From Thermoanaerobaculia bacterium (lineage in GTDB: Bacteria > Acidobacteriota > Thermoanaerobaculia > Multivoradales > JAIOJS01), in NCBI GenBank assembly GCA_030429235.1, contig JAUIDB010000002.1, positions 1-64,000 on the forward strand: a DNA stretch of 64,000 bases. The letters are read 5' to 3'. The number at the start of each line of letters is the position of its first letter. Position 1 is the first letter of the stretch. The notes under the pieces were generated by a model. It saw only the letters and a list, made by a program, of their open reading frames with translations. It had not been told where the DNA came from and did not search any database. Shown here in pieces: positions 1,104-21,385 of this stretch. The position numbers and the translations under genes are program-made.

Positions 1104-4100
1104 TCAGTCCTGACCTCGCGGCTGGATCAGATCGAGACCGCTGGCGTAGCCCGACAGGGTGCGGGCCTCGAGCCCTCGACCCTTGACCTTGACCTCGACC
1201 GTGCGCCAGACGCTGTCGTCGGGCGTAGCTTCGGGAGTGTAGGTCAGGAGGTAGTGGCTGCGCAGTTCCTCACTGATCGATCCGTAGATGTCGTCGAGGT
1301 TGGCGTCGGTCGCGACGTAGTAGACCCGACCTCCACCGGCGGCGGCCATGCGCTCGAGTTTGCCGGTGAACGAACGCGTGCGGAATCCCTTGCCGTTGGT
1401 CCGGGCCGCGGTGTTGTTCATGACGATCAGGTAGATCGGCACCCCGGTTTCTCGCGCCATCTGCAAGGCCTGACGATAGGAGAAGTCCTCGTCTTCGTCG
1501 TCGCCGTCGTAGAACACGACCAGAGCCTTGCGGCCGTCGATCTCCTCCAACTGTAGGAGCGATAGGACGACGGCTTCCCACACGGCGGTGCGGCCACCGG
1601 CAGACAGATCGGAGATGCCGCGCGAGACGCGCCCCAGGTTGCGGGTGGACGACTGGACGACCCGGGGTCGGTTGCCGAAGCCGACGAGGAAGGCTTCGTC
1701 GCGTCCCGCTTCGAGGCCCGAGACGAAGTTGGCGGCCGCGGCCTGCACCCGAGGCAGTTTGGCGAACAGGCTCCCTGAGGAGTCGATGGCGAGCCCCACC
1801 GTGAGTGGCAGATCGTCGGCGAGGCGAAGGCTGTCGACGCCCTGGGGTACCCCCGAGTCGATCACTTCGAAGGCCTCGGCACTCAGATCGCGCACCGGTT
1901 TGCCGTCCCGGTCGGTGACCACGACGAACAGCTCGACCACCTCGACCTCGACCTGCGCCCCGAACCGCGCGCTGTTCATCAGGACGACGTCTTCGGTCGT
2001 CCGTCCCGAGGCGAGGGTGGCTTCGACGCGGATGAAACCGGAGGAGTCGGAGTAGGGGATCAGGATGCGCCGCTGGTGGGGCGCCTCGCGGCTGGTGGCG
2101 ATCAGTTCGTTGCGCCAGTAGTAGTCGAGCCGCTCCAAGCGCTCGTCGGCGGGGATCCGCAATTCGGCTTGCACCGTGACGGGGCCGACGTGGTCTCCGG
2201 ACTCGGGAGAGGTGATGCGGACCCAGAAGGTCTCGGCCGACTCGTTGAGTACCAGGAAGTCGCGCCCGATCTCCTCGTCGGAGTGGTCGTAGGCGATCGC
2301 TTCGACGATGTGTCGCTCTCCACCGCGACCCAGACGGACGCGGGTACGAAAGGGCGGCTCGGTCAATTCGGCGTGGCGCTCGCCGTCGAAGAGGAAGAGA
2401 AGCCGCGCTACCGCGTCGCTGGCCTCGGCGGTGACCTCGACCCGTCCTTCGATCGCTCCCGCCAGGGGTAGGGGCAGAATCCGCACGGTTCGTTCGGTGA
2501 CCGCGGTCGCTTCGAGGCGTTGCCACCAGTCGACTGGCTCCCCCGCCGTCGAGTCGATCAGGTCACGGCGGACGAATTGGGCGTAGCCGCCTCCCCAGAT
2601 GCCGTGGTCGAGGGCCTCGACCGCGACCAGAGCATCGGACGTGGCCCCGGGAAGCTGCAACGGCAGGCGGACTTCGAAGTCACCTCCCGCCAGAGGAGCC
2701 GGGGCGACGACGTGGTGACGGTACACCCGGGCCCCGTCTTCCAAGGTGAGGCCGGTGGTCAGCCGCACCAGTCCGGGCTCGTCTTGTTCGACGAGCGACC
2801 ACTCGGCTCGCGTCAAGAGTTCGGGCGGTGCGTCGTCGGTACCGGTAGCGACGGCCGCCTCCACCGGCAGGTCGCCCGTCGCGTCCTCCTGGGCCAGTCG
2901 CCGCAGGCGAGCCTCGGTCAAGGAGGGAGCTGGATCGGGAGCCGCCCAGGCCGGGGCAGCGAGCGGCGAGCCGTTGGCTCGACGGGCGCGCAGCGGCAGG
3001 ACCTTGCCTCGGAGGGCGTCGGGCCAGGTCAGTTCGAAAGCACGACGTTTGGCGAGTTGGTCCAACAGGGAGCGCAGGGACTGCCCATCGGTCACCACCC
3101 GGCCCAGCGTCTGCTCGGCGACTTCGGTGGCCGCGGGGCGCAGGCTCGGCTCCAGGCCAATCTCGGAGTCCTCGGCCAGGTCGGGCACCGCCGGGCTGTC
3201 CGCTCCGCGACCCAGGCCTACCCGAAAACCGACCGGTGTCTCCTCGGTCGCGCGGTACTCGATCGCTCCTTTCGCCTCGACACTGGTGACCACCGGGGCG
3301 ACGACCCAGCCGAGGCTGGTGGCCGCCTGGGCGAGTTCGGAGGCATTCGGAGGGTTCAGGGCGCCGGTCGGGAGCTGATCCGGTCGGTAGTACTGGATCG
3401 ACTGGAGTCCGATCCCTTCGTCGAGGAGCAGGAGGAGCCGGGGGGCTTCCGAAGGCCCCTCCTCGGCCAACCAGGCCAGCAGGGTGTCGCGACGATCGCG
3501 CAGGAGGCGGGCCTCCTGGTCGGCTTGCTGCCTTCGACGGTCGGGGATCGGTTCGCGCCACCACTGGGTCCGTCGTTGGCGGATGCGATCGCTAGCCCCG
3601 GGTTCGAAGTAGAGCTCGTACAGGCTGCGCTCCAGGAGAGCCTTGTCCGCCGCGGGCACGACCGCCGAGCGCGGCTCGGGCGCCGCCCGGACCACACGCA
3701 GGGAGCCGAAGCGGGTCAGTGAATCGAGCTGCGCGATCAGCAGGTCGGCGAGCCGCCGCACCGCTCCCGGGGAGCTGACCTCGGCTTCGATGAACACCGT
3801 GACCTCCCAGGAAGGGGCGTCCACCGCCCGCACTGGGAGGGCGAGGTCTCCCTCCTGGGTGCTTACTTCGAAATCGGGAACTCGGTCACCGCGTGGCGAT
3901 GCCTCGACCCAGAGTCGGCTCGTTGCGGCCGGCGCGGCGACCAACGCCGAGGCAATCAGCGACAGGCTGCCGGCCACGAGCAGGGCTCGGGCCAGGTGGC
4001 CTGTTGCTCTCGGCGCACGTGCAGGTGAGCGGCTCGAGGAACGGCGGGAGTCGGATGAGGTCGGCTGGGTCAAGAACTGGTCCTCGAGTTGGGGGCGGCG

Positions 4101-8353: not shown

Positions 8354-9232
8354 ATGAGCAGACCATCACCATGCGTGGCGGAGAACGAACCGACGGACCG
8401 GATCCTGTACCAGAGTTCTCGCCTCACGATCGCGAACTTCCGTGTCGCGCCCCCCAGCCCTCGGTTTCGGCGGCCCGATCCGATCTCCAACCAGATCGTG
8501 GTGTTCCCGCGGGCGGCGGTGCGTCTGGCTCCCGCTTCGGAAGGCACCACCGAAGAGGTCGTCGATCCGACGGTTGTAACCCTCTATCGGCAGGGTCAAA
8601 GCTACCGACGCCGACCGATCGATGAGTCTCCCGACCGTTGCGATTGGTTCTCACTGCCGCCGGAAGCCTTCCGCGAGTTGTTGGGAGGCCACATGGAATC
8701 GACCTTCGATCGGTTCGTGCTCTCCTGCCCGATCAGCGTCTATACGGCCCAGCGCCGAATCGTGCGCTACCTGGAGGAGACTCCCAGCTCCCAGGTGGAT
8801 CCACGGGAGGTCGAAGAGGCGACGCTGGCCACGCTGCGACGCCTTTTTGCGGGCGCCATCTCAGGGCGCGCCGGGGTCGCGGCGGGGGCGGCGTGGTTGG
8901 TGCGTAAGGCCAAGGGGCGTCTCGCCGAAGCGACGGCCCCCCGCGGTCTCGAGGAACTGGCGCTCGAACTCGGCTGCTCCGTGGGGTACCTGTGCCGGGC
9001 CTTCCGCTCGGTGACCGGAGAGACCCTGCATGCCTGGCGCACCCGGCGGCGGCTCGCTCTCGCCCTGGAAGCGCTGGAGACGAGTTCGCTCTCTGGCGTG
9101 GCCCTGGACCATGGGTTCAGCAGCCACAGCCATTTCACCGAGGTGTTTCATCGGTGGGTGGGGACCACTCCCTCGGCGTATCGTCAGTCCGTGACGCGTC
9201 TACCGCGACTCCAGGGAGCCGCGGTGCTCTGA
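8354..9232 (+). CDS. AraC-family transcriptional regulator
   Basis: This 292-aa protein has a C-terminal double helix-turn-helix (residues about 190-285). It includes GLEELALELGCSVGYLCRAF (first HTH) and VALDHGFSSHSHFTEVFHRW (second HTH, with the family F-S-x-x-S-H-F-T-x-x-F-x-x-x-x-G-x-x-P-S signature ending VGTTPSAYRQ). The N-terminal half resembles a cupin-like sensing domain but has no residues I can assign to a ligand. The intergenic space to the divergent DUF1579-like gene is 161 bp, so that gene is the likeliest target; this is inference from position. Confidence 0.9.
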   Translation: MSRPSPCVAENEPTDRILYQSSRLTIANFRVAPPSPRFRRPDPISNQIVVFPRAAVRLAPASEGTTEEVVDPTVVTLYRQGQSYRRRPIDESPDRCDWFSLPPEAFRELLGGHMESTFDRFVLSCPISVYTAQRRIVRYLEETPSSQVDPREVEEATLATLRRLFAGAISGRAGVAAGAAWLVRKAKGRLAEATAPRGLEELALELGCSVGYLCRAFRSVTGETLHAWRTRRRLALALEALETSSLSGVALDHGFSSHSHFTEVFHRWVGTTPSAYRQSVTRLPRLQGAAVL

Positions 9233-11773: not shown

Positions 11774-12811
11774 TCAGTCGGTTGTCGCGGCTCCGCGCGA
11801 TCGGGCGGCAATCCGTTCCACCGCTTCCGCGTGTTCACGCGCCCAAGTGGAGGGGCCGAGGATGTCTCCATCCTCGATCATGGCCTGGGCGTGGCAGCGG
11901 CCGCAGTACGACAGCTTCTCGCAGCTGCGGCAGGTATGAAGATCGCGGGCTCGAATGTTGCGCACGAAGTTCAGCCACTTCGACTCGCGCCAGATCTCAC
12001 CGAACGATTTCTCGAGGACGCTGCCACCTGATCCGGGCAAGATATTGCAGGCCTGGACTTCGCCGGCGGAGTTGATCGAGGCGAAACGACTGCCGGCAGC
12101 GCAGAGCGGTCCGTCGCTGACCACTCCGTCGATCGAACAGCCCGAGTGGGGGCCGCCGTAGTACGTTTCGAGGTCCCGCTCCGGGACCCGCACTCCCAAT
12201 GGCGTGAGATCCCCGTCTTTGCGGGGCACGATCTTGCCGAACGAGAGGAAGCCGGCGCCGATCGACGCGGCGTAGGCGGCGACCTCGTCGACCTGCCGGT
12301 AGTTGTGGGTCATGAGCGGCATCTTGAGAATCGTCTCGATTCCACGACTTCGTACCCGCTCGATGCCGGCGATCGTGCGCTCGAAGGAGCCCGGACGTCG
12401 GGTGACCGCTTCGAAGGTCTCGGCGCGGACGGAGTACAAGCTGATCTCCATCGTGCAGTGGAGACTGGCGATCTGGTCGGCGATGGCCTCGTCGATCCGA
12501 TAGCCGTTGGAGAACAGCCGAAGGCTGAAACCCAGCTGACGGGCGCGTTGTGCGATGGGGTACCAATCGCGCCGCAAAAAGATCTCGCCCCCGGTGAGCG
12601 TCAGGTAGAAGGTACCGGTGTCGGCCAGTTCTTCGAGCAGAGTCATCACCCGGGCGGTCGGCATCCGGTCTGGGGCCTGGAAGTCCGGGATGTAGCAGTG
12701 TTCGCACCGGTAGTTGCAGTGGTGCGTGAGCTCGAGCGAGACCTCGATCGGGATCGAGTTGCGGCTCGCCTCGACCAGCATGCGGGTGGCGGCCGGCATC
12801 GGGAAGCTCAT
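11774..12811 (-). CDS. Radical SAM/SPASM peptide-modifying enzyme
   Basis: The 345-aa protein has the radical SAM cluster motif CNYRCEHC (C32, C36, C39), GGE at about residue 75 for SAM binding, and a C-terminal SPASM region with CAAGSRF, CNILPGSG and CRSCEKLSYCGRC ligating auxiliary Fe-S clusters. PqqE, anSME and sactipeptide/ranthipeptide synthases share this layout. The start ATG at 12811 overlaps the stop of the upstream HprK-like gene by 4 nt (ATGA). It is the last gene of a five-gene minus operon with a PqqD-like gene two positions upstream. PqqD proteins hand peptide substrates to radical SAM enzymes, so this enzyme probably installs a crosslink or epimerisation on a ribosomal peptide. 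The chemistry cannot be predicted from sequence alone. Confidence 0.93.
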   Translation of the reverse strand: MSFPMPAATRMLVEASRNSIPIEVSLELTHHCNYRCEHCYIPDFQAPDRMPTARVMTLLEELADTGTFYLTLTGGEIFLRRDWYPIAQRARQLGFSLRLFSNGYRIDEAIADQIASLHCTMEISLYSVRAETFEAVTRRPGSFERTIAGIERVRSRGIETILKMPLMTHNYRQVDEVAAYAASIGAGFLSFGKIVPRKDGDLTPLGVRVPERDLETYYGGPHSGCSIDGVVSDGPLCAAGSRFASINSAGEVQACNILPGSGGSVLEKSFGEIWRESKWLNFVRNIRARDLHTCRSCEKLSYCGRCHAQAMIEDGDILGPSTWAREHAEAVERIAARSRGAATTD

Positions 12812-13686
12812 GCCGCGACCTTGGTCGACCGAGTGAGAAAGCTCCAGATGTCGGGGGTCGGAGCGAAGGAGAGTTCCCAACTCGGTACGCGGGTGACGAG
12901 ATCGCTCAGTTGGTCGAAGAGACGCCGGTGGCTCGCTGGGTTCGGAGGGGGCCACAGAACCTCACGGGCCAGCCGCCGGAGGGCTTGCGATGCCGCGAGG
13001 CGCCGGGTTCGGTGGTGCGGCGCCTGTCGCAGGAGGTGGATCCCGACGAGCGGCGCCTGGGCCGGCCGCGAGGCGGAGTAGGGCAGACTGTGGACGATCG
13101 GTACCTCGGGCCGCAGGTCGATCGCCACGACCTCGTCGGCGATGGCGTGGTCTCCACAGAGACGGGCCAGCGTCGACTTGCCGATGCCCGAGGGACCACT
13201 GGCGATCCAGGCGCTCGGTGGGGGAGCTTCACGGACCAGCGCCGCCGCGTGCAGCAGGGGGCCATGGCACCAGGCCGCGGGGAGGAGAATCTCGAGCAGA
13301 TGGTCGATCGGGTAGAGCGCGGCCGGGCCGTAGACGCGAACCGAAGTCTCAGGCGCATCCGCTTGAGGTGTAGCTAGTTCGATCCGGAAGCTCTTCCCGA
13401 TGAGTTCGTCCACCGCTTCCGCGCCTGCGGAGTCGCCGGACGTCGGTCTCCACTGCGTGGGCTCGCGGACCACCGCCAATGGTGACCCGAGTTCGTTCGG
13501 GATGCCACCGGTTTCGATCCAGCGGACCCGCGCCGTGGCCGCGACGGGATCGGCCAACCGATCGTGGTAGCGACACCGCAGGAGTTCGAGACAGGCCTGC
13601 GGGCCCTCGAAGGCGACGCAGACGGGGCCAAAGGCGACGGCTACCGAGTCCGAAGCGACCGTCACTGGAAGGGAAAACCGACGCAT
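12808..13686 (-). CDS. HprK-like P-loop protein of a peptide-modification operon
   Basis: The 292-aa protein has a Walker A motif SGPSGIGKSTLARL near residue 167 and an acidic strand DEVVAIDL about 20 residues later, as in the C-terminal domain of HPr kinase/phosphorylase. It lacks the N-terminal HPrK domain and no HPr gene is nearby. HprK-like proteins recur in RiPP clusters with PqqD-type proteins; in some lasso clusters they phosphorylate the peptide, elsewhere their role is open. The ATG at 13686 has AGGG 6 nt upstream and overlaps the PqqD-like gene by 25 nt. A GTG at 13665 would give a 4-nt GTGA overlap but has no ribosome-binding site. The radical SAM gene follows by ATGA overlap. Confidence 0.78.
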   Translation of the reverse strand: MRRFSLPVTVASDSVAVAFGPVCVAFEGPQACLELLRCRYHDRLADPVAATARVRWIETGGIPNELGSPLAVVREPTQWRPTSGDSAGAEAVDELIGKSFRIELATPQADAPETSVRVYGPAALYPIDHLLEILLPAAWCHGPLLHAAALVREAPPPSAWIASGPSGIGKSTLARLCGDHAIADEVVAIDLRPEVPIVHSLPYSASRPAQAPLVGIHLLRQAPHHRTRRLAASQALRRLAREVLWPPPNPASHRRLFDQLSDLVTRVPSWELSFAPTPDIWSFLTRSTKVAA

Positions 13687-14123
13687 TGATCGCCCTGACC
13701 AGGCATGAAGCCGCAGCTCCTCCCCGGTTGGGCCACGGCCTCCAGGCCCTCCTCCCAGACGAGTCGCGGTGGAAACTCCGACTCGGCGGGGAACTCCGGT
13801 AGCGGAATCGGTTCGACCTCGGTTTCGGATGGGCCGGCCGCGACCAGGTCACGTGCCGCGAGAACGACCAGAAACTCCGAGATCGAGGCGCTACGCCGCT
13901 CGACGTCGCCGCCGGCCTCGGAGGCGCAGAGCACTAGATCGTCAGCCGTGCGTCGACCGTCGAGCAGGTGCCAGAGGTAACCCGCCAGAGGGTCGAGACC
14001 GTAGAACGCCTTGCTGCGTAGGTCGACGAGCACGGTCTCTCCGGCGACCGCCCTCCAGGCGACGTGCTCGGCGCGGCGCCAAGCTCCGGTCGGGGGTGCG
14101 GTCGTCTCCGGCGAGGCACTCAA
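13662..14123 (-). CDS. PqqD-like peptide-binding protein with Cys-containing C-terminal tail
   Basis: Residues about 18-95 form a PqqD-type RiPP recognition element: ETVLVDLRSKAFYGLDPLAGYLWHLLDG is its usual beta-strand, turn and helix core (seen at residues 28-55), followed by a second helix pair ending RDLVAAG. After a Glu/Pro linker comes a tail FPPRLVWEEGLEAVAQ, then SCGFMPGQGDQC and VGFPFQ, with two Cys spaced C-x9-C. PqqD proteins normally end after the RRE, so this tail looks like a leader-plus-core peptide fused to its own recognition domain. That is inference. The start is a TTG at 14123 overlapping the upstream stop (TTGA), so translation is coupled to the secreted protein gene. The stop lies 25 nt inside the HprK-like gene. 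Confidence 0.8.
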   Translation of the reverse strand: MSASPETTAPPTGAWRRAEHVAWRAVAGETVLVDLRSKAFYGLDPLAGYLWHLLDGRRTADDLVLCASEAGGDVERRSASISEFLVVLAARDLVAAGPSETEVEPIPLPEFPAESEFPPRLVWEEGLEAVAQPGRSCGFMPGQGDQCVGFPFQ

Positions 14124-14791
14124 GGCAGACTCCAGGCGCCGGTATCTCCGGACTCGAAGTCGTCAGCGAAGAGTGGGATCGAGCTGGTGGGGAGGGCGAC
14201 CAAGACGAACGACTCCGCCGGGCCGCAGGGAGTCGTCGCCTGGTCCAGGTAGGGCGTGACGGTCCAGGTCCCGTAGAGGGAGCTGTGGACGATCGCGGTA
14301 CCGGCGACCGGCAGGGTCGCCGTGGCAGTGGGTGGACCCTCCGCGGCCAAGGTCTGGACCGGGAGGGCTCGCGGGTACCCCGCGACGGCGCGGGCCGTAG
14401 GCGCTGGTTGGCTACTGATCGGAAGGTCGATCCACTGGTACAGGTGGCCGCTCGGTGTTTCGAATCGGAGGCGGAGTAGATGGTCGCCGACCCTCTGGGC
14501 GGAGCTCAGTGTCGTCTCGACGTGCAAATCCAGAATCTCCGTCACCAGATACTCTCCATTCGGTCCCGGACTTCCTTGCGGTGAACTCACCGTTGTCGAG
14601 GGACAGGCCGTACCTCCGGCCGCGTTGGGTTGCGGGGTGCTTTCGACGGTGAACACCCGGTTGAGGCTCATAGGGTCGAGGTTCGGGGTGAGCTGCGGCT
14701 TGTCCTGGGCGTGGGTGGCGGCCGCGGTGCTCACCATCAACAAGCTCAACAGGATGGTGTTCCAGAAGGGGGTCGTGTCGTATCGCTTCAT
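14120..14791 (-). CDS. Secreted protein with C-terminal FESGDTGAWS motif
   Basis: The 223-aa protein has a signal peptide (residues 1-28, ending THAQD) and an otherwise beta-rich, low-charge body with a Cys pair (TACPST and TPCGPAES). Its last 17 residues carry LFADDFESGDTGAWS. Very similar DxFESGxTxxWS endings occur on many exported proteins of Acidobacteria and some Proteobacteria, where they behave like a C-terminal tag of unknown purpose; this rests on memory of the pattern, not a search. The gene starts 10 nt after the giant protease stop, with a GAGG ribosome-binding site, and its TGA overlaps the TTG of the PqqD-like gene. Its place between protease and peptide-modification genes suggests one functional unit. 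Confidence 0.72.
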   Translation of the reverse strand: MKRYDTTPFWNTILLSLLMVSTAAATHAQDKPQLTPNLDPMSLNRVFTVESTPQPNAAGGTACPSTTVSSPQGSPGPNGEYLVTEILDLHVETTLSSAQRVGDHLLRLRFETPSGHLYQWIDLPISSQPAPTARAVAGYPRALPVQTLAAEGPPTATATLPVAGTAIVHSSLYGTWTVTPYLDQATTPCGPAESFVLVALPTSSIPLFADDFESGDTGAWSLP

Positions 14792-14801
14792 GTCGGTCGC
14801 C

Positions 14802-17800
14802 TCAGAGTGGGGGGGTCACGCTGTACACCGCGCCGGAATCGCTCCCGGCGTAGAGCGTCGTGCCGTCGAAGGAGGGGCGACCGATCACGGCGGTGCCGTC
14901 TCCGAGTTGTACCGAGGTCGATCCGCCGGTCGCGAGGTCGACTTCGTAGAAACGACCGTTGTTGGCGCCGACGTAGAGGAAAGCCCCCGGGGGAAGCACC
15001 GGGCTCGAGGGGCCGGGTACTGCCGTCGTGGACCAAAGCAGCGTATCTGTATCGCCGGCGAAGCCCAGACCCCAGACCCGGTTGGTGGTACTGAAGAAGA
15101 GGCGTTGGCCTGGCCGGTCGATGACCATTCCGTTCTTGACCGGTCCGTCGCCGGTGTCGAAGTTCCACAACAACGCCCCATTGGCCTCGTCTCGACCCTG
15201 GACCCCACCTTCGTTGTTCCCGATGTAGACCCGGCCGTTCCATAGGCTGACGTTGCCGTCGATCTCGCCGGCGTCGACGCTCCAGTGGGACGCCGCAGAG
15301 GCACCGGTGAAGTTGATCGCCCACAGAGTGTTGGGACTACCTCCCGCCCGGCGGCGGCTGGTGAAGTAGAGCCGCGTGTTGGCGTAGTCGACCCAGGCGG
15401 CACCGCTGATGATGCCGATCGCGCTGGCCCCTCCTCCGTTGTCGAAGGTCCAGGCAATCGAACCGTCGTTGAGGTTGAGGGCGTGCACGGCGCTGGCCCC
15501 GCCGGCGTTCCGAGTCCCGGCAAAGACCAGGTCGAAGGCCCCGCCGTAGACCGTCAACATCGCCGTCGGTGAACCCTGAATCATGCCTCCGAGATCGGGG
15601 CTGGCCCAGATCTGTTGACCGGTCTCGGCGTTGACCGCGTAGACCCGCTGATCCTGCGAACCGAGCAGGGCGATCTTGGTGGCTCCGCCCGGTCCCGGTG
15701 CTGGCAAGGGGAGAATCGTCGGGCGTCCCTGGGACGGAGCTCCCATGGTGAGAGGCTGCCACTGCGGGGCCGGTCCGGGCCAGTCACCGCCACCGGTTCC
15801 CGGATTCATCGAATGCAAGGTGCGATCGTTGCTCGCCACGTACACCGAGCCGATCCCCGGACCGCTCGTCGCCGAGGCAGCGGTGGCGTAGGCCCACTTC
15901 GTTTCGGCCGTGTTGTCGAAGGGCAGCGCTTCCACGACTCGTCGGGCGGAGGAGTTGCCATCGGCATCGACCAGGAAGGCGGAGTAGAAGTAGTCGTCGT
16001 CGTTGGTCAGACCGCCGTGGGTCCAGGTACCGTAGCTACCGTCGACACAAGCCGTGGTCGTGCCAGCGTTGCCTCCGGTATGGCTGGTCGGGAAACTCGC
16101 CGGGTCCCACCGAACGACCACGTTGACCGGACCATTGAGGGAGCCCCCCAGGTCGCAGTCCAAGGGGTTCTGCCACTCGAGTTTGACCTGCTGGTCGGTG
16201 GACAGAGCGGTAAAGGCCGGGAGTTGAGCGGGGTCGTTGGTGCAGGCAGCGCCGGGTACATCGGCAGTCACCACAACATCGTCCAGGAACCAACCGTCAG
16301 CCGTGACAGTGCAGTCGGCGATGGTGGTGAAAGCGATTCGCAGGTCTTCACCCTGGCAGCCGTCACTGCCGGCGTCGATGGCGTCGCACACCGCGTCGAG
16401 ATCGACCTCGGTTGGGGTAAAGGAGGTGTCCGTGCCGGTGAAGATAGGAAGGCCGTTGGGGCCCAGCGTCACGGAGCATCCGGCCCATTGCGTCAGGTTG
16501 CCGTTGTAGGTCGTTCCCGAAATGATCATCGAAGGAGGCACGAAGGTGTAACTCGACCCGTCCAACGACACCGCTACGGCCGCGCCGTCCCAGTTGGTTT
16601 CGAACTGCCTTCGGTGCTCGAATTCGAGTCGAGTCGTCGTCGCTCCTGGGGGCACGGAGATGCCGGTCGTGCCGGCCGGTTGGGCGAAGTAGTACTGGTC
16701 CGTGTTGTAGTCGTCTGTACACGCGGTTCCGCCGAAACGGAAGATGTTGGTTCCGCTGTTGGCGGTGCAGGTCTGGACCCCGAGCCAACTCGTCGGCTGG
16801 ATGGCTGGAGGCGGCTGATAGAAACTACCGAGAACCCAATCGTCGATCGTGGGCGGAGTCGCGGCATCGAAGTTGTTCTCGTAGAGTGTCTGGACTCCGC
16901 CACCGGCACTCGGGAGGGCGCTGAGGTCGGTCGTGTTCGATTCCTCGAAGCCGTCAGCGCAGGCGCCACCTCCACCGAGGAGACTGTCCTCGGCGCGCAC
17001 CATGTATCGGTAGGTGGTGCCGCCGGTGACGTTGGTGTCTTCGTAGAAGAGGTTGGTGACGCAGGTCTGGTAGAGATCTCCCGCGTCGGGAGCACTTCCA
17101 TCGTCGGTACGGTAGACGTTGTAGACCGGCGTTCCCCCGCAGCTCGAACTGGCGGGATTCCACTCGACCCGCGCCTTGCATTCTGTTCCCAAGGCTCCGG
17201 CGAAGGTGACTCCGCCGAAGGTCGGGGGCACTGGATTGACGACATCGGTACCCGGCAGGGTGATGGTGCTACCGGCCGAGCAGGTCGGGTTGTTGGCTCG
17301 AACGTGGTACGTCTCGGCCACCCCTGGTGCCCCGCCGGCGTCGGTGTACGACAGTGTGGTCATGGGCAGGGTAGCGATCGGCGTGGCTCCGCGGTAAATC
17401 GTGAAGGTGCAGTCGTTGCCGGCGCAAGGGTTCTGCCAGTTCGACGGCGCGTTCCAGCTCAAAGCCACTCCGGTTTCGCGGCACGAATCCACGTCGGTGG
17501 CGCTCTGGATTCCACCGAAGACCGGTCCGTTGGCGACGTCGGTGATGGTAGTGGGGCTGCTGACGATCTCGGCCGTGGCCAGGCACCCGTTGGTCGCGAG
17601 GACGCGGTAGTGGTAGGGCTGGCCAGGGGTGGCTCCCGTGTCGACGAAGGGGGAGACACCGTCGGGGTCCACACCGGCCGAGGTCCAGGAGATGCCGTCG
17701 ACGGAGCGGAACACCTCGATCGTACCGGTGGGAGCTCCATCGCCCCAGTCGGATACGTCGGTCCAGGAGACCTGAATACCGACGTCGCAGGCGTCTAGAT

Positions 17801-20800
17801 CGACGAGGCCCACGGCACCCGCGAGGTCCGGATTGTTGCAGACACAACTGTCAGACTGTACGTCGCACACCGTGGTCTGGACGTCGGTCCAACGGACGTT
17901 ATCGAACCAGAGACCGGTACCGGTGGCAGCGGGGTCGGTATTGTAGTTGACTTCGAGGTAGTACGACTCGCCGGTCGAGAGGCCTGAGAGATCGAAGACG
18001 GCGTCTCCCCAGGTGAGGTCGGCACCGGTCCAACCCGCATCGTTCGTAATGTGGCAGAGGGAGGCCTGGGAGGCTCCGACCGAATCGTAGGTCTCACCGG
18101 TTGGGGTGAGAAGGGTGTGGGTTCCGCTGCCGATATGGACAGCGTGGACGTTGCCTTTGTCCCACGGGCCCGAGGCTGGGTCCTCGATGTCGTAACGAAC
18201 CGCCAGGGTCACGGAGGGACTCCCCGCCTGGGGTACGAAGAAGGGAGACTGTGCCACATCGCAGGTGTTGTCGATTCCAGAGGTCGAGTGGATCGACCAG
18301 CTGCCGAGCGACGCCTGCGAGTTGTCGCGGGTGAAGCCGCTGGCCAGCGTCCATTGCTCCTCGTCCACCTCGAAGGAGTTCGGGGTTGGCATGGCCGCCA
18401 AGTCCTGTTCGGTCGCTCCCAGACTGAAGCCGCTCTGGGTCGTCAGAGGGGGCATCTGCGCTTGCATCTCGTCGGCGGTGACGGCGATCGAGAAGCTGGG
18501 TTGGTGGCCACAGGTGGCACCCGAGAGGTTGAAGTCGAAGGTGCTCGCCGCCTGGACCGTTTCAGCGAGACTCGCCGCCATGGCGATCGGCATGGGCGTC
18601 GTCACGGTCACGGCGGGATCAGCGGTTGCGATCGTAGCCACGACGTTGCTGAGGGAACCTACGCCATTGTTGACTACCGAGAAACCAACGCGCCCGGTTT
18701 CACAGTTGTCGAGAATGCCGTCACTGTCGCCATCGCCGAGCACTAGGTTCAAGGTCGCCGAGTCGTTGACGTAGATGGCACTCGGGCCCGCGTTGGGAGT
18801 GACTGAGATGCAGGATGATGGAACCGAACCACAGGATTCGGATCCCACCGGGTGACGCACGATCTGGTAGTAGTAAGTGGTGCCGTTGGCGACCGCAGTG
18901 TCGTTGTAGCCGGTTCCAGAAGCATCGTTCGCGATCCGCGTGAAGCCAGCGTTGCATCCGATGTCGTTGCGGTAGATGTCGATCAAGTCGGCGCCGGGGT
19001 TTGGCGTCCAGGAGAGGGCGACGGAGTTGTTGCTGCCGCTACCCGCCAGGGTAGGCGCCGCGGGAGGCGTGCAGGCTTGGTTGCAGACGTTCCACATGGC
19101 GTCACTGGTGCATGCGATCTCGTGTCGGTCGAAGGCCGCCGCGAGTTGGCAGGAGTGAGGGGTTCCGTTGGCCAGGTTACCGTCGTCGTCGTCGACGAAC
19201 CGCATGGTGCGCCAGTTAGAACCGGAGTTGCACCCGTTCGAGGTCCAAGTCGCACCTCCCGTGTTGCAGGTGAAGGCCTGGTTGGCCTGACTGCGGGAGA
19301 GATACCAAAGGCGGTCGGTGATCGACCAGGCCGCCCCGGCTCCGTACGGACCTCCGGCCCCGGGGCAGTTCCAATCGGGGTAGGTTCCGTTGCGCCCCGA
19401 ACAACCCGTTTGCAGGTCATAGGCAGCGAAGTCGAACAGGGCGCCCGACGAGACGTACGACTCGCAGTGTCCTTCCTTGTTGTCGGCCCCGTTGGGGATA
19501 TTGAAGCCGCAGGGGCCGTTGTAGCTGCCGTTGCAGGCCGGAGAGTTCGAACAGGGGCAGATGTTGTCGGTGAACCAATCGACCGTCCATGGACGGTTGT
19601 TGGCATGGTTGCCCCAGTCGATGTCGCGAACGCCGTCGCAGGGAGCAGCGGCCGTGGGATGGCTAACACAAGGGTCACCGTACCCCCCGCAGGCGCCACC
19701 GCTGAAGAAGAACCCCCAGCCCACGCACGAGTCGAGGGTCTGCAGGGCGGCGGTGAAGTCACCGTAGGTCTCACCGGTTCCGTTTTCGGCCGTGGCGGCG
19801 CTCCCGTCGTTGGAGTCGAAGCCGTGGCCCCACTCATGCATGGCGATGCCCACATCTTCACCGGTGTTGCCACAGGTAAGGCTGCCCACGGTTCCGCTGG
19901 TGTAGAAGTTGAGGCTTGCGCCGTTCCAGAAGGCATTGCAGCTATCGTTGATGTTGACGTTGACGGGCAGTTGTGAGCTGAGCCAGGCCGTGGCCGGATA
20001 GTAGGACCGAGCCTTCTCGGCGATCTTGTTGACGTGGACGAATTGCTGGCGCGCCGCCGCCGTGTTGTCGTTGATACCAAGCTGATTGGCACAGTCGTTG
20101 GGAGCAGTAGGGGCCGAGCTGAAGTCGATGTCACCAACGCCGTCAGACGGTGCGCTACCGGGACCGCCGGCACAGTTGTCGTTCACAGAGACGTACGGAC
20201 CGATGTGGCGAGCGGTCTGTGCGTTCGAGTCCCAGGTGTAGACACCCGACGAGTTGGTCGCCACTCCGAGCGGGGTCACGTTGGCAAAAGGCCAGCCGAC
20301 CGTCACCTGCGGTTGGACCACCCCTCCGACCCGCCATGAGATTGGCCAGTAGCCACCTCGGACCTGCGAGAACTCTCGAGTGTCTCGCATCTCGAGGACC
20401 TCGCCCGTCGTGGCGTCGACGCGCAGGCGCCAGACGGCCTGATCTCCCGCCCGGGCAATGTGGTACTCCCACACCGGGCGTAGGCCGTACCCTTGGCCAT
20501 CGACATAGTCGCCCCGTTCGTCGGCGGAGGTACGGGTGGGAATGAGGTAAAGCTGCGACTTGCCGTGCTGGAAGTCTCGACCCTCGACGAAACCGCCGAG
20601 GTACTCGGAGCCCTGTTCTCGGGCGTCGATCTCGTCGAGTTCGACCGAGGCGAACGAAGTGTTCGGCGCTGGCACCAGACGGGCCCCCCACTGCACGAGG
20701 TTTCCGTGGTTGACTCGAAAGAAAACGCGTGCATCCTCGATGCGGAGGCCGTCCTGCCAGACCTCGAACTCCACGTTCCACAGGTAGTCACTCAGGGGAC

Positions 20801-21299
20801 CAGAGGCCGCGGTGGCGACTCGGAGTTCTCGGCCTGCAGTACCGAGGAGGTCGCCGTGCTGGGCGATGAAGTCACGAGCGAGGCTCTCGAGGGTGGTGAG
20901 ATCGACGTCTTGCTGACCGCCCAGCCGAGCCCCGAGATCCGCTAGCGTGAGCCGGTTGCCTCGTCCTGGGATCCACGGGATTCCAGCTCCTTCGGCCACT
21001 TCGACCAACCCGCTGCGACGGTCGATGTAGGCCCGCCAGTCGCCGCGCGCGATCTGCGCCTGTCGGAAACTCACCCAGTCGTCTTCCTGTTCGGGGCCCA
21101 GCGTCACAGCTTCGATCGGTTCGATATCGACGGTGGGACGCAGGAGGATGTCGACTTTGGCTTTCGAGGCCCATTCCGAGGCTGGGCCGTCGTCGACGCG
21201 TTGAGCCGGTAGCACCGTGGAAGCGAGGCAGAGCGTCAGAGCCAGTGGTAGTGATCGCTTCCACATAGGCGAGCCGAACGAGAATGGCAAAGGATCCAT
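14802..21299 (-). CDS. Giant secreted multidomain metalloprotease, 2165 aa
   Basis: A signal peptide (hydrophobic WKRSLPLALTLCLAS, then VLPAQ) precedes an FTP/PepSY-like propeptide with EYHIARAGDQAVWRLRVDATTGE around residue 265. The catalytic domain has GIAMHEWGHGFDSND near residue 486 with a downstream Glu in GETYGDF, a gluzincin HExxH...E site. Many Cys pairs suggest disulfides. After it come fibronectin-III-like domains (for example VALSWTPNPGADLIDIYRND), beta-sandwich CUB/MAM-like regions, and a C-terminal PQQ-type beta-propeller (residues about 1830-2165; repeats such as VYAVNAETGQQIWASP and GALLWNFDTGDG). The ATG at 21299 has GGAG 6 nt upstream; a TTG at 21311 overlaps that site. It is the first gene of the five-gene operon. 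Confidence 0.88.
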   Translation of the reverse strand: MDPLPFSFGSPMWKRSLPLALTLCLASTVLPAQRVDDGPASEWASKAKVDILLRPTVDIEPIEAVTLGPEQEDDWVSFRQAQIARGDWRAYIDRRSGLVEVAEGAGIPWIPGRGNRLTLADLGARLGGQQDVDLTTLESLARDFIAQHGDLLGTAGRELRVATAASGPLSDYLWNVEFEVWQDGLRIEDARVFFRVNHGNLVQWGARLVPAPNTSFASVELDEIDAREQGSEYLGGFVEGRDFQHGKSQLYLIPTRTSADERGDYVDGQGYGLRPVWEYHIARAGDQAVWRLRVDATTGEVLEMRDTREFSQVRGGYWPISWRVGGVVQPQVTVGWPFANVTPLGVATNSSGVYTWDSNAQTARHIGPYVSVNDNCAGGPGSAPSDGVGDIDFSSAPTAPNDCANQLGINDNTAAARQQFVHVNKIAEKARSYYPATAWLSSQLPVNVNINDSCNAFWNGASLNFYTSGTVGSLTCGNTGEDVGIAMHEWGHGFDSNDGSAATAENGTGETYGDFTAALQTLDSCVGWGFFFSGGACGGYGDPCVSHPTAAAPCDGVRDIDWGNHANNRPWTVDWFTDNICPCSNSPACNGSYNGPCGFNIPNGADNKEGHCESYVSSGALFDFAAYDLQTGCSGRNGTYPDWNCPGAGGPYGAGAAWSITDRLWYLSRSQANQAFTCNTGGATWTSNGCNSGSNWRTMRFVDDDDGNLANGTPHSCQLAAAFDRHEIACTSDAMWNVCNQACTPPAAPTLAGSGSNNSVALSWTPNPGADLIDIYRNDIGCNAGFTRIANDASGTGYNDTAVANGTTYYYQIVRHPVGSESCGSVPSSCISVTPNAGPSAIYVNDSATLNLVLGDGDSDGILDNCETGRVGFSVVNNGVGSLSNVVATIATADPAVTVTTPMPIAMAASLAETVQAASTFDFNLSGATCGHQPSFSIAVTADEMQAQMPPLTTQSGFSLGATEQDLAAMPTPNSFEVDEEQWTLASGFTRDNSQASLGSWSIHSTSGIDNTCDVAQSPFFVPQAGSPSVTLAVRYDIEDPASGPWDKGNVHAVHIGSGTHTLLTPTGETYDSVGASQASLCHITNDAGWTGADLTWGDAVFDLSGLSTGESYYLEVNYNTDPAATGTGLWFDNVRWTDVQTTVCDVQSDSCVCNNPDLAGAVGLVDLDACDVGIQVSWTDVSDWGDGAPTGTIEVFRSVDGISWTSAGVDPDGVSPFVDTGATPGQPYHYRVLATNGCLATAEIVSSPTTITDVANGPVFGGIQSATDVDSCRETGVALSWNAPSNWQNPCAGNDCTFTIYRGATPIATLPMTTLSYTDAGGAPGVAETYHVRANNPTCSAGSTITLPGTDVVNPVPPTFGGVTFAGALGTECKARVEWNPASSSCGGTPVYNVYRTDDGSAPDAGDLYQTCVTNLFYEDTNVTGGTTYRYMVRAEDSLLGGGGACADGFEESNTTDLSALPSAGGGVQTLYENNFDAATPPTIDDWVLGSFYQPPPAIQPTSWLGVQTCTANSGTNIFRFGGTACTDDYNTDQYYFAQPAGTTGISVPPGATTTRLEFEHRRQFETNWDGAAVAVSLDGSSYTFVPPSMIISGTTYNGNLTQWAGCSVTLGPNGLPIFTGTDTSFTPTEVDLDAVCDAIDAGSDGCQGEDLRIAFTTIADCTVTADGWFLDDVVVTADVPGAACTNDPAQLPAFTALSTDQQVKLEWQNPLDCDLGGSLNGPVNVVVRWDPASFPTSHTGGNAGTTTACVDGSYGTWTHGGLTNDDDYFYSAFLVDADGNSSARRVVEALPFDNTAETKWAYATAASATSGPGIGSVYVASNDRTLHSMNPGTGGGDWPGPAPQWQPLTMGAPSQGRPTILPLPAPGPGGATKIALLGSQDQRVYAVNAETGQQIWASPDLGGMIQGSPTAMLTVYGGAFDLVFAGTRNAGGASAVHALNLNDGSIAWTFDNGGGASAIGIISGAAWVDYANTRLYFTSRRRAGGSPNTLWAINFTGASAASHWSVDAGEIDGNVSLWNGRVYIGNNEGGVQGRDEANGALLWNFDTGDGPVKNGMVIDRPGQRLFFSTTNRVWGLGFAGDTDTLLWSTTAVPGPSSPVLPPGAFLYVGANNGRFYEVDLATGGSTSVQLGDGTAVIGRPSFDGTTLYAGSDSGAVYSVTPPL

Positions 21300-21357: not shown

Positions 21358-21385
21358 ATTATAGGTTTCGCAATCCAGAACGCAA
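21358..21385 (-). promoter_or_regulatory. Promoter of the protease/peptide-modification operon
   Basis: On the minus strand TTGCGT (21380-21385) is followed 16 nt later by a perfect TATAAT (21358-21363). Transcription would begin near 21351, about 50 nt before the protease ATG. A divergent -10 for the SLOG-like gene lies close by. Confidence 0.55.

Follow-up and report, generated by a model that had tools for sequence, protein, structure and literature searches.

We propose that a five-gene operon on the minus strand of the window (the whole 64,000-nucleotide stretch of DNA analysed here, lying on contig C86 of the 4.8 Mb, 92-contig genome G000) probably produces a RiPP that is modified by a radical SAM enzyme and whose precursor is joined in one protein to the domain that recognizes it. 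The original prediction of a RiPP-type modification operon is borne out to the extent that an RRE is encoded beside modifying enzymes, together with a putative precursor bearing a leader and a core. The closest named relative of the window genome is a Thermoanaerobaculia metagenome-assembled genome (JAIOJS010000226, hereafter L035). The features of the locus are as follows:

14802..21299, minus strand: giant secreted protein (P0001) with an M36-like domain, an FnIII/jelly-roll region and a C-terminal PQQ_2/BamB-type beta-propeller
14120..14791, minus strand: small secreted protein of the P0002 family, with a signal peptide, a beta-rich domain and two conserved Cys
13662..14123, minus strand: PqqD-type RRE with a putative fused precursor peptide (Pfam, alignment, TbiB1 profile match)
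13830..14081, minus strand: RRE (PqqD) domain, residues 15-98 (PF05402 over residues 29-94; alignment A2)
13719..13772, minus strand: leader-like segment PPRLVWEEGLEAVAQPGR, residues 118-135 (P119 and W123 invariant in A2)
13665..13718, minus strand: core-like segment SCGFMPGQGDQCVGFPFQ, residues 136-153 (identical in L035; C147 invariant in A2)
12808..13686, minus strand: candidate HprK-like peptide kinase (H146, GxxGxGK and D184-E185 invariant in 18 homologues)
11774..12811, minus strand: radical SAM/SPASM enzyme of 345 aa (18 homologues all keep CxxxCxxC and six SPASM Cys)
21358..21385, minus strand: candidate promoter, TATAAT with a weak -35 box TTGCGT at a spacing of 16 (read from the sequence; a consensus scan reports none)

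All five open reading frames and the junctions by which they had been described as linked are present in the sequence. The protease gene (stop codon at 14802-14804) is separated from the P0002 start at 14791 by 10 nt, P0002 and the PqqD-like gene share a TTGA overlap at 14120-14123, the PqqD-like and HprK-like genes overlap by 25 nt (13662-13686), and the HprK-like and radical SAM genes meet in an ATGA overlap at 12808-12811. With its start inside this overlap, the radical SAM protein has 345 aa; the longest open reading frame would give 393 aa. The true start of the giant protein may be M12 (21266; entered as likely in our parts list), where the signal peptide begins. The promoter, previously called good, has a perfect TATAAT at 21358-21363, but its -35 box matches at three of six positions and a promoter scan finds no site. 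The pairing of a PqqD domain with a SPASM radical SAM enzyme was confirmed by Pfam (PF05402, E = 1e-8; PF04055, E = 1e-22; PF13186, E = 5e-7). The HprK-like gene is also present and retains most residues of the lasso-kinase motif, but at the Pfam level only a P-loop is recognized.

A protein search was run in 59 relatives, and profiles were searched against 149 class genomes, 396 genomes from the phylum and 93 belonging to a second class; all genome searches were made within the Acidobacteriota, and the phylum-wide first look scored ten candidates per genome. A PqqD-like protein with the full tail was found in 21 Acidobacteriota genomes, 19 of them in the class of the window (two in family f1, three in f6, three in f9, ten in f13 and one in f14) and two in another class (f78). 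Families f1, f9, f13 and f14 share the order giant secreted protein, P0002-like protein, PqqD-tail, HprK-like protein and radical SAM enzyme as far as the contigs reach (that of L085 begins inside P0002 and that of L041 stops in HprK). The secreted gene pair of f6 is located away from the enzymes, with propeller and P0002 forming one gene in L171 and L173 and neighbouring genes in L172, and in f78 the propeller-P0002 pair is divergent from a PqqD-HprK-radical SAM-B2 set. The link between the propeller/P0002 pair and the peptide enzymes thus survives three gene arrangements. The neighbourhood might have proved unconserved, or the tail missing from homologues of the PqqD-like protein; instead, the same gene order recurs in many genomes, a conservation far beyond chance, and the tail is found on aligning the homologues. 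The predicted five-gene set is therefore real and conserved, but it is too small: a lasso-type B2 leader peptidase, encoded in trans in the genome of the window, belongs to it.

Two further features were observed in f6. In L036 and L038 a PMT-like membrane glycosyltransferase gene upstream of the PqqD-tail gene replaces the secreted genes, with a similar open reading frame in L037; glycosylation of the peptide by this enzyme is conceivable, as is the lack of any connection. Long tandem NPWTDA repeats occur near the C-termini of large open reading frames adjoining the fused propeller-P0002 genes of L171 and L173.

The RRE profile matched the lasso B1 RRE TbiB1 (E = 1.5e-11). In alignment A2 (19 sequences) P119, W123 and C147 are invariant, and the tail consists of an invariant P-x3-W leader-like motif followed by a short core containing between one and three Cys. 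The three residues are also shared when the tails of f78 are added, and the leader-like consensus reads P-R-[IL]-x-W-x-E-E; the core-like consensus of most tails is C-x-F-x-P-x-x-x-x-x-C-x-x-x-P, while the cores of f9 are shorter, with one Cys (NQISPPQ...NP.C). At least one Ser or Thr lies within the last 20 residues of every tail (21/21), and 14 of the 21 end in Ser, the window core not being among them. Between the window and L035, two species of one genus, identity is 54% in the RRE, 37% in the linker, 78% in the leader-like segment and 100% in the core-like segment; the last 18 residues differ by nine synonymous and no nonsynonymous codon changes (Fisher p ~1e-5 against the rest), the mark of a core under purifying selection. 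The tail, conserved in 21 genomes, is accordingly proposed, as before, as the likely substrate of the modifying enzymes, but the earlier remark that no separate precursor is encoded needs rewording, since the tail itself would be the precursor. AlphaFold models of the PqqD-tail protein and P0002 reached a pLDDT of 43-44, too poor for leader docking; they are uninformative because the input consisted of the window and L035 sequences alone. A window open reading frame at 2561-2758 that resembled the tail (profile E = 0.07) was rejected as a chance match.

Free-standing relatives of the tail come from the two genomes, G073 and G144, that have P0002 without a fused tail; in both, PqqD is tail-less. 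G144 carries in a row the propeller protein, P0002, a small open reading frame (...RRYDPPAVAWEEPIEVRAALTLACTKTDFICSIDSAAS), tail-less PqqD, the radical SAM enzyme and HprK. In G073 a small open reading frame (...RAYEKPAISWQEMLEVRKTLAVACAKVAGRSAICTQFPTS) ends just before tail-less PqqD, radical SAM and HprK, with the propeller and P0002 genes on a separate contig. A profile of the 21 tails run against 12,515 open reading frame fragments from all loci retrieved the G073 peptide at E = 5.9e-6, the next match, an unrelated one, standing at 0.07. The G144 peptide is recognized by its leader motif and its position between P0002 and tail-less PqqD, its E-value with the extended profile being 0.46. 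These free-standing sister precursors carry a YxxPxL-like leader, and the sequences are most simply read as the outcome of a fusion between an ordinary precursor and its RRE, or of the reverse event.

Other loci of the lineage hold further precursor candidates. A second locus of the window genome (L047, on contig C13) encodes PqqD, an HprK-like protein and a different radical SAM enzyme, and its peptides at 3267-3488 and 8846-9049 are two-Cys precursor candidates, each following a giant open reading frame, the second of which has a confirmed C25 peptidase domain. The pair ends in ...YEKPRLLFEEPLELFATVCNPPAKSTVAxCSSGPISS, and similar peptides follow C25 open reading frames in L043 and L048. In L044 the candidate at 3686-3892 (MKNSRRPGG...CPSGPIAS) has an ATG overlapping the stop codon of a giant open reading frame, an arrangement of translational coupling, and that frame ends like the C25 ones; the idea that this precursor (genome G024) is fused to a C25 protease was rejected, since the peptide is separate, with an ATG start of its own that overlaps the stop of the protease. 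In G144 a small peptide that contains Cys and has a YVPPSL leader (L174, 6189-6389), another RiPP candidate, lies between PqqD/radical SAM genes and HprK-like/C25 peptidase genes. Pairing of a secreted protease with a RiPP is thereby suggested to recur in this lineage.

The giant protein contains HEWGH...ENGTGETYGDF, which we take to be an M36-type HExxH zinc site with its downstream Glu motif. Against the NCBIfam M36 models it scored below the cut-offs (47 against 1500 and 45 against 1700 bits). Among its relatives the C-terminal ~950 aa are kept and the N-terminal protease domain varies: it is of the M36 type in L041 and L172 and of the subtilisin/S8 type in L040 (by sequence), L081 and L089 (by Pfam), and relatives in L080, L083 and L087 have no recognized catalytic domain. 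A secreted 2165-aa metalloprotease had been put forward as a defining part of the system; the M36-like zinc site agrees with this description, but the conserved features are the C-terminal propeller and P0002.

P0002 had no Pfam or NCBIfam match, and its profile search against solved structures came back empty. It occurs in 21 of the 149 class genomes, namely in all 19 with a fused tail and in two of the 130 others (G073 and G144), and both of these carry the propeller/P0002 pair along with the PqqD-radical SAM-HprK set. The co-occurrence gives a Fisher p of 4e-22, which overstates independence since the genomes are related. Wherever examined, P0002 adjoins the propeller protein or is fused with it, the L085 contig ending inside P0002. 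The FESGDTGAWS tail, previously counted as part of the system, was dropped: it recurs throughout the genome, and relatives outside the genus lack it at their C-terminus. As a substrate or sorting tag it was rejected, G000 holding 75 copies against none of the reversed pattern. FESGDxxxW at 14132-14158 recurs at 74 other places in G000 and inside other secreted proteins of the relatives, and on these sequences we regard it as a lineage-wide secreted-protein motif.

The tight linkage of P0002 and the propeller protein to the enzymes would also fit a reading in which the tail serves the RRE as a structural or regulatory arm and is not a substrate, the target of the radical SAM enzyme being some other protein such as P0002 or the giant protein. 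P0002 does have conserved Cys, and the fused-tail loci show no separate precursor gene, but we hold this reading to be unlikely: where PqqD is tail-less, a peptide of this type is encoded on its own immediately upstream, the B2 peptidase belongs to the family of leader-peptide proteases, and f6 has the enzymes in the operon with P0002 outside it.

Returning to the tail as the probable substrate, the radical SAM family is 44-85% identical to the window copy across its 18 homologues, and many of these have a seventh Cys near the C-terminus that is Arg in the window copy. SkfB and PqqE were the closest solved structures to its profile, which makes thioether or C-C crosslinking a plausible chemistry, and the invariance of C147 together with the kinship to SkfB hints, suggestively only, at a Cys thioether of the sactipeptide or ranthipeptide kind. 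None of the NCBIfam equivalog cut-offs was passed (PqqE, 75 against 381 bits; mycofactocin, 101 against 265 bits). A PqqD-type RRE, a PqqE-related SPASM enzyme and a PQQ_2-family propeller encoded together could also mean that a PQQ-like cofactor is made for the propeller, with the tail as the source of its atoms. We consider this improbable: a PqqA-like Glu/Tyr pair is not conserved, the cores being rich in Cys and Pro and otherwise variable; the PQQ_2 match is to a BamB-type family that, by its Pfam description, has structural members; no PQQ biosynthesis equivalog cut-off was reached; and PQQ synthesis has no role for a kinase or B2.

Reported lasso kinases have H, P-loop and D-D motifs; the residue they phosphorylate is the C-terminal Ser or, in the case of BsfA, Ser3 (PMC10368454). 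Set against the H-GxxGxGKS-DD pattern of BsfK (PMC10368454), the HprK-like family keeps H, G, G, G, K and D invariant, with the second Asp replaced by Glu in 18 of 18. The window copy falls below the NCBIfam cut-off for HprK-related kinase A (11 against 200 bits), the profile found P-loop matches only among solved structures, and no relative was found in viral contigs.

A Transglut_core3 protein (B2) follows the radical SAM gene directly in 14 of the 21 genomes, and in two of two relatives tested it scored above the NCBIfam lasso_biosyn_B2 cut-off. B2 is absent from the operon in the remaining 7/21; orphan relatives are present in trans in f1, including the genome of the window, and in f9, and only distant B2-type proteins were found in G029 and G102, which have no operon B2. 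In an unrooted tree that held two of the three f9 sequences, the orphans fell among the operon copies and three unrelated B2-type proteins formed their own long branch. That no lasso cyclase is encoded, as originally noted, was upheld: tblastn for Asn synthase was negative in every operon locus and found its positive control. With a lasso-like RRE and B2 and a putative lasso-type kinase but no Asn synthase, the operon has lasso-type handling parts, but the features tested do not identify it as a lasso cluster. No dedicated exporter was identified.

The same parts might be remnants of a decaying lasso cluster with the radical SAM gene as an unrelated neighbour, a notion encouraged by the lasso-like locus with Asn synthase in G122. 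It is highly improbable, in that 21 genomes keep the order and the reading frames, the core is under purifying selection, the radical SAM enzyme is conserved at 44-85%, and Asn synthase was found in no operon locus. The G122 locus (L146, contig C50) has its lasso-like set (Asn synthase, HprK-like protein and PqqD) beside a C25 peptidase, and also holds an orphan operon-type B2 and a radical SAM remnant.

Under the preferred reading of a fused RiPP precursor, the fusion, the conservation of the tail, its free-standing homologue, the gene linkage, the B2 and kinase motifs and the co-occurrence are features of the sequences themselves; the reactions, release, export and function that we infer would run as follows. 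Leader and core would be contained in the final ~36 residues of the PqqD-like protein. The RRE would bind the leader segment with its P-x3-W motif, either in the same chain or across a dimer, and offer the Cys-containing core to the radical SAM/SPASM enzyme for crosslinking or some other modification. The HprK-like enzyme would phosphorylate a core Ser or Thr, as lasso kinases do, and the lasso-type B2, whose gene is part of the operon in most relatives but lies elsewhere in this genome, would free the modified peptide. The product could then act with P0002 and the secreted propeller protein, often a protease, equally conceivably as ligand, regulator or inhibitor. More tentatively, the system may represent a new RiPP family in which RRE, leader and core form one polypeptide, a radical SAM enzyme works with a lasso-type kinase and peptidase, and the product is devoted to the giant secreted protein as its ligand, inhibitor or activator, the C25 loci with free-standing precursors forming a second branch.

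The operon resembles lasso systems with discrete B1, B2 and HprK (the paeninodin type and the Bradymonas bsf cluster, PMC10368454) in its B1-type RRE, its B2 and the YxxPxL-like leader of its free-standing sister precursors, with a kinase motif (H/P-loop/D-D(E)) that agrees in part, but here a radical SAM/SPASM enzyme replaces the Asn-synthase-like cyclase and the precursor is fused to the RRE (21 genomes). With RRE-dependent radical SAM/SPASM RiPPs (PQQ, SkfA sactipeptides and the streptide type) it shares a PqqD-type RRE and a SkfB/PqqE-related SPASM enzyme; unlike them, it adds a kinase and B2, the precursor-RRE fusion and a giant secreted protein, and reaches no equivalog cut-off. HprK-related kinases A and B (TIGR04352, TIGR04355) are both matched weakly by the kinase family, far below the cut-offs. 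In borosins (PMC7878506) a larger biosynthetic protein likewise ends in the core peptide, but that core is fused to the modifying methyltransferase, whereas here it would be fused to a recognition domain with the enzyme in trans. The excerpts of PMC7470986 and PMC12710340 describe RREs either as discrete proteins or in fusion with enzymes or other domains; fusion with a core does not feature there. In the open-licence papers searched, no description of a link between a modified peptide and a secreted protease was found. The precursor-on-RRE layout beside a giant secreted protein gene is undescribed in that literature, which is weak evidence of novelty.

Genome mining seeks small precursor genes near RREs, so a precursor lying inside the RRE protein would lead miners to call such a cluster precursor-less. 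The fusion makes cis recognition of a substrate testable in one polypeptide, and lasso-type kinase and peptidase parts would here be used without a lasso cyclase. The system also points to a tie between modified peptides and secreted proteases.
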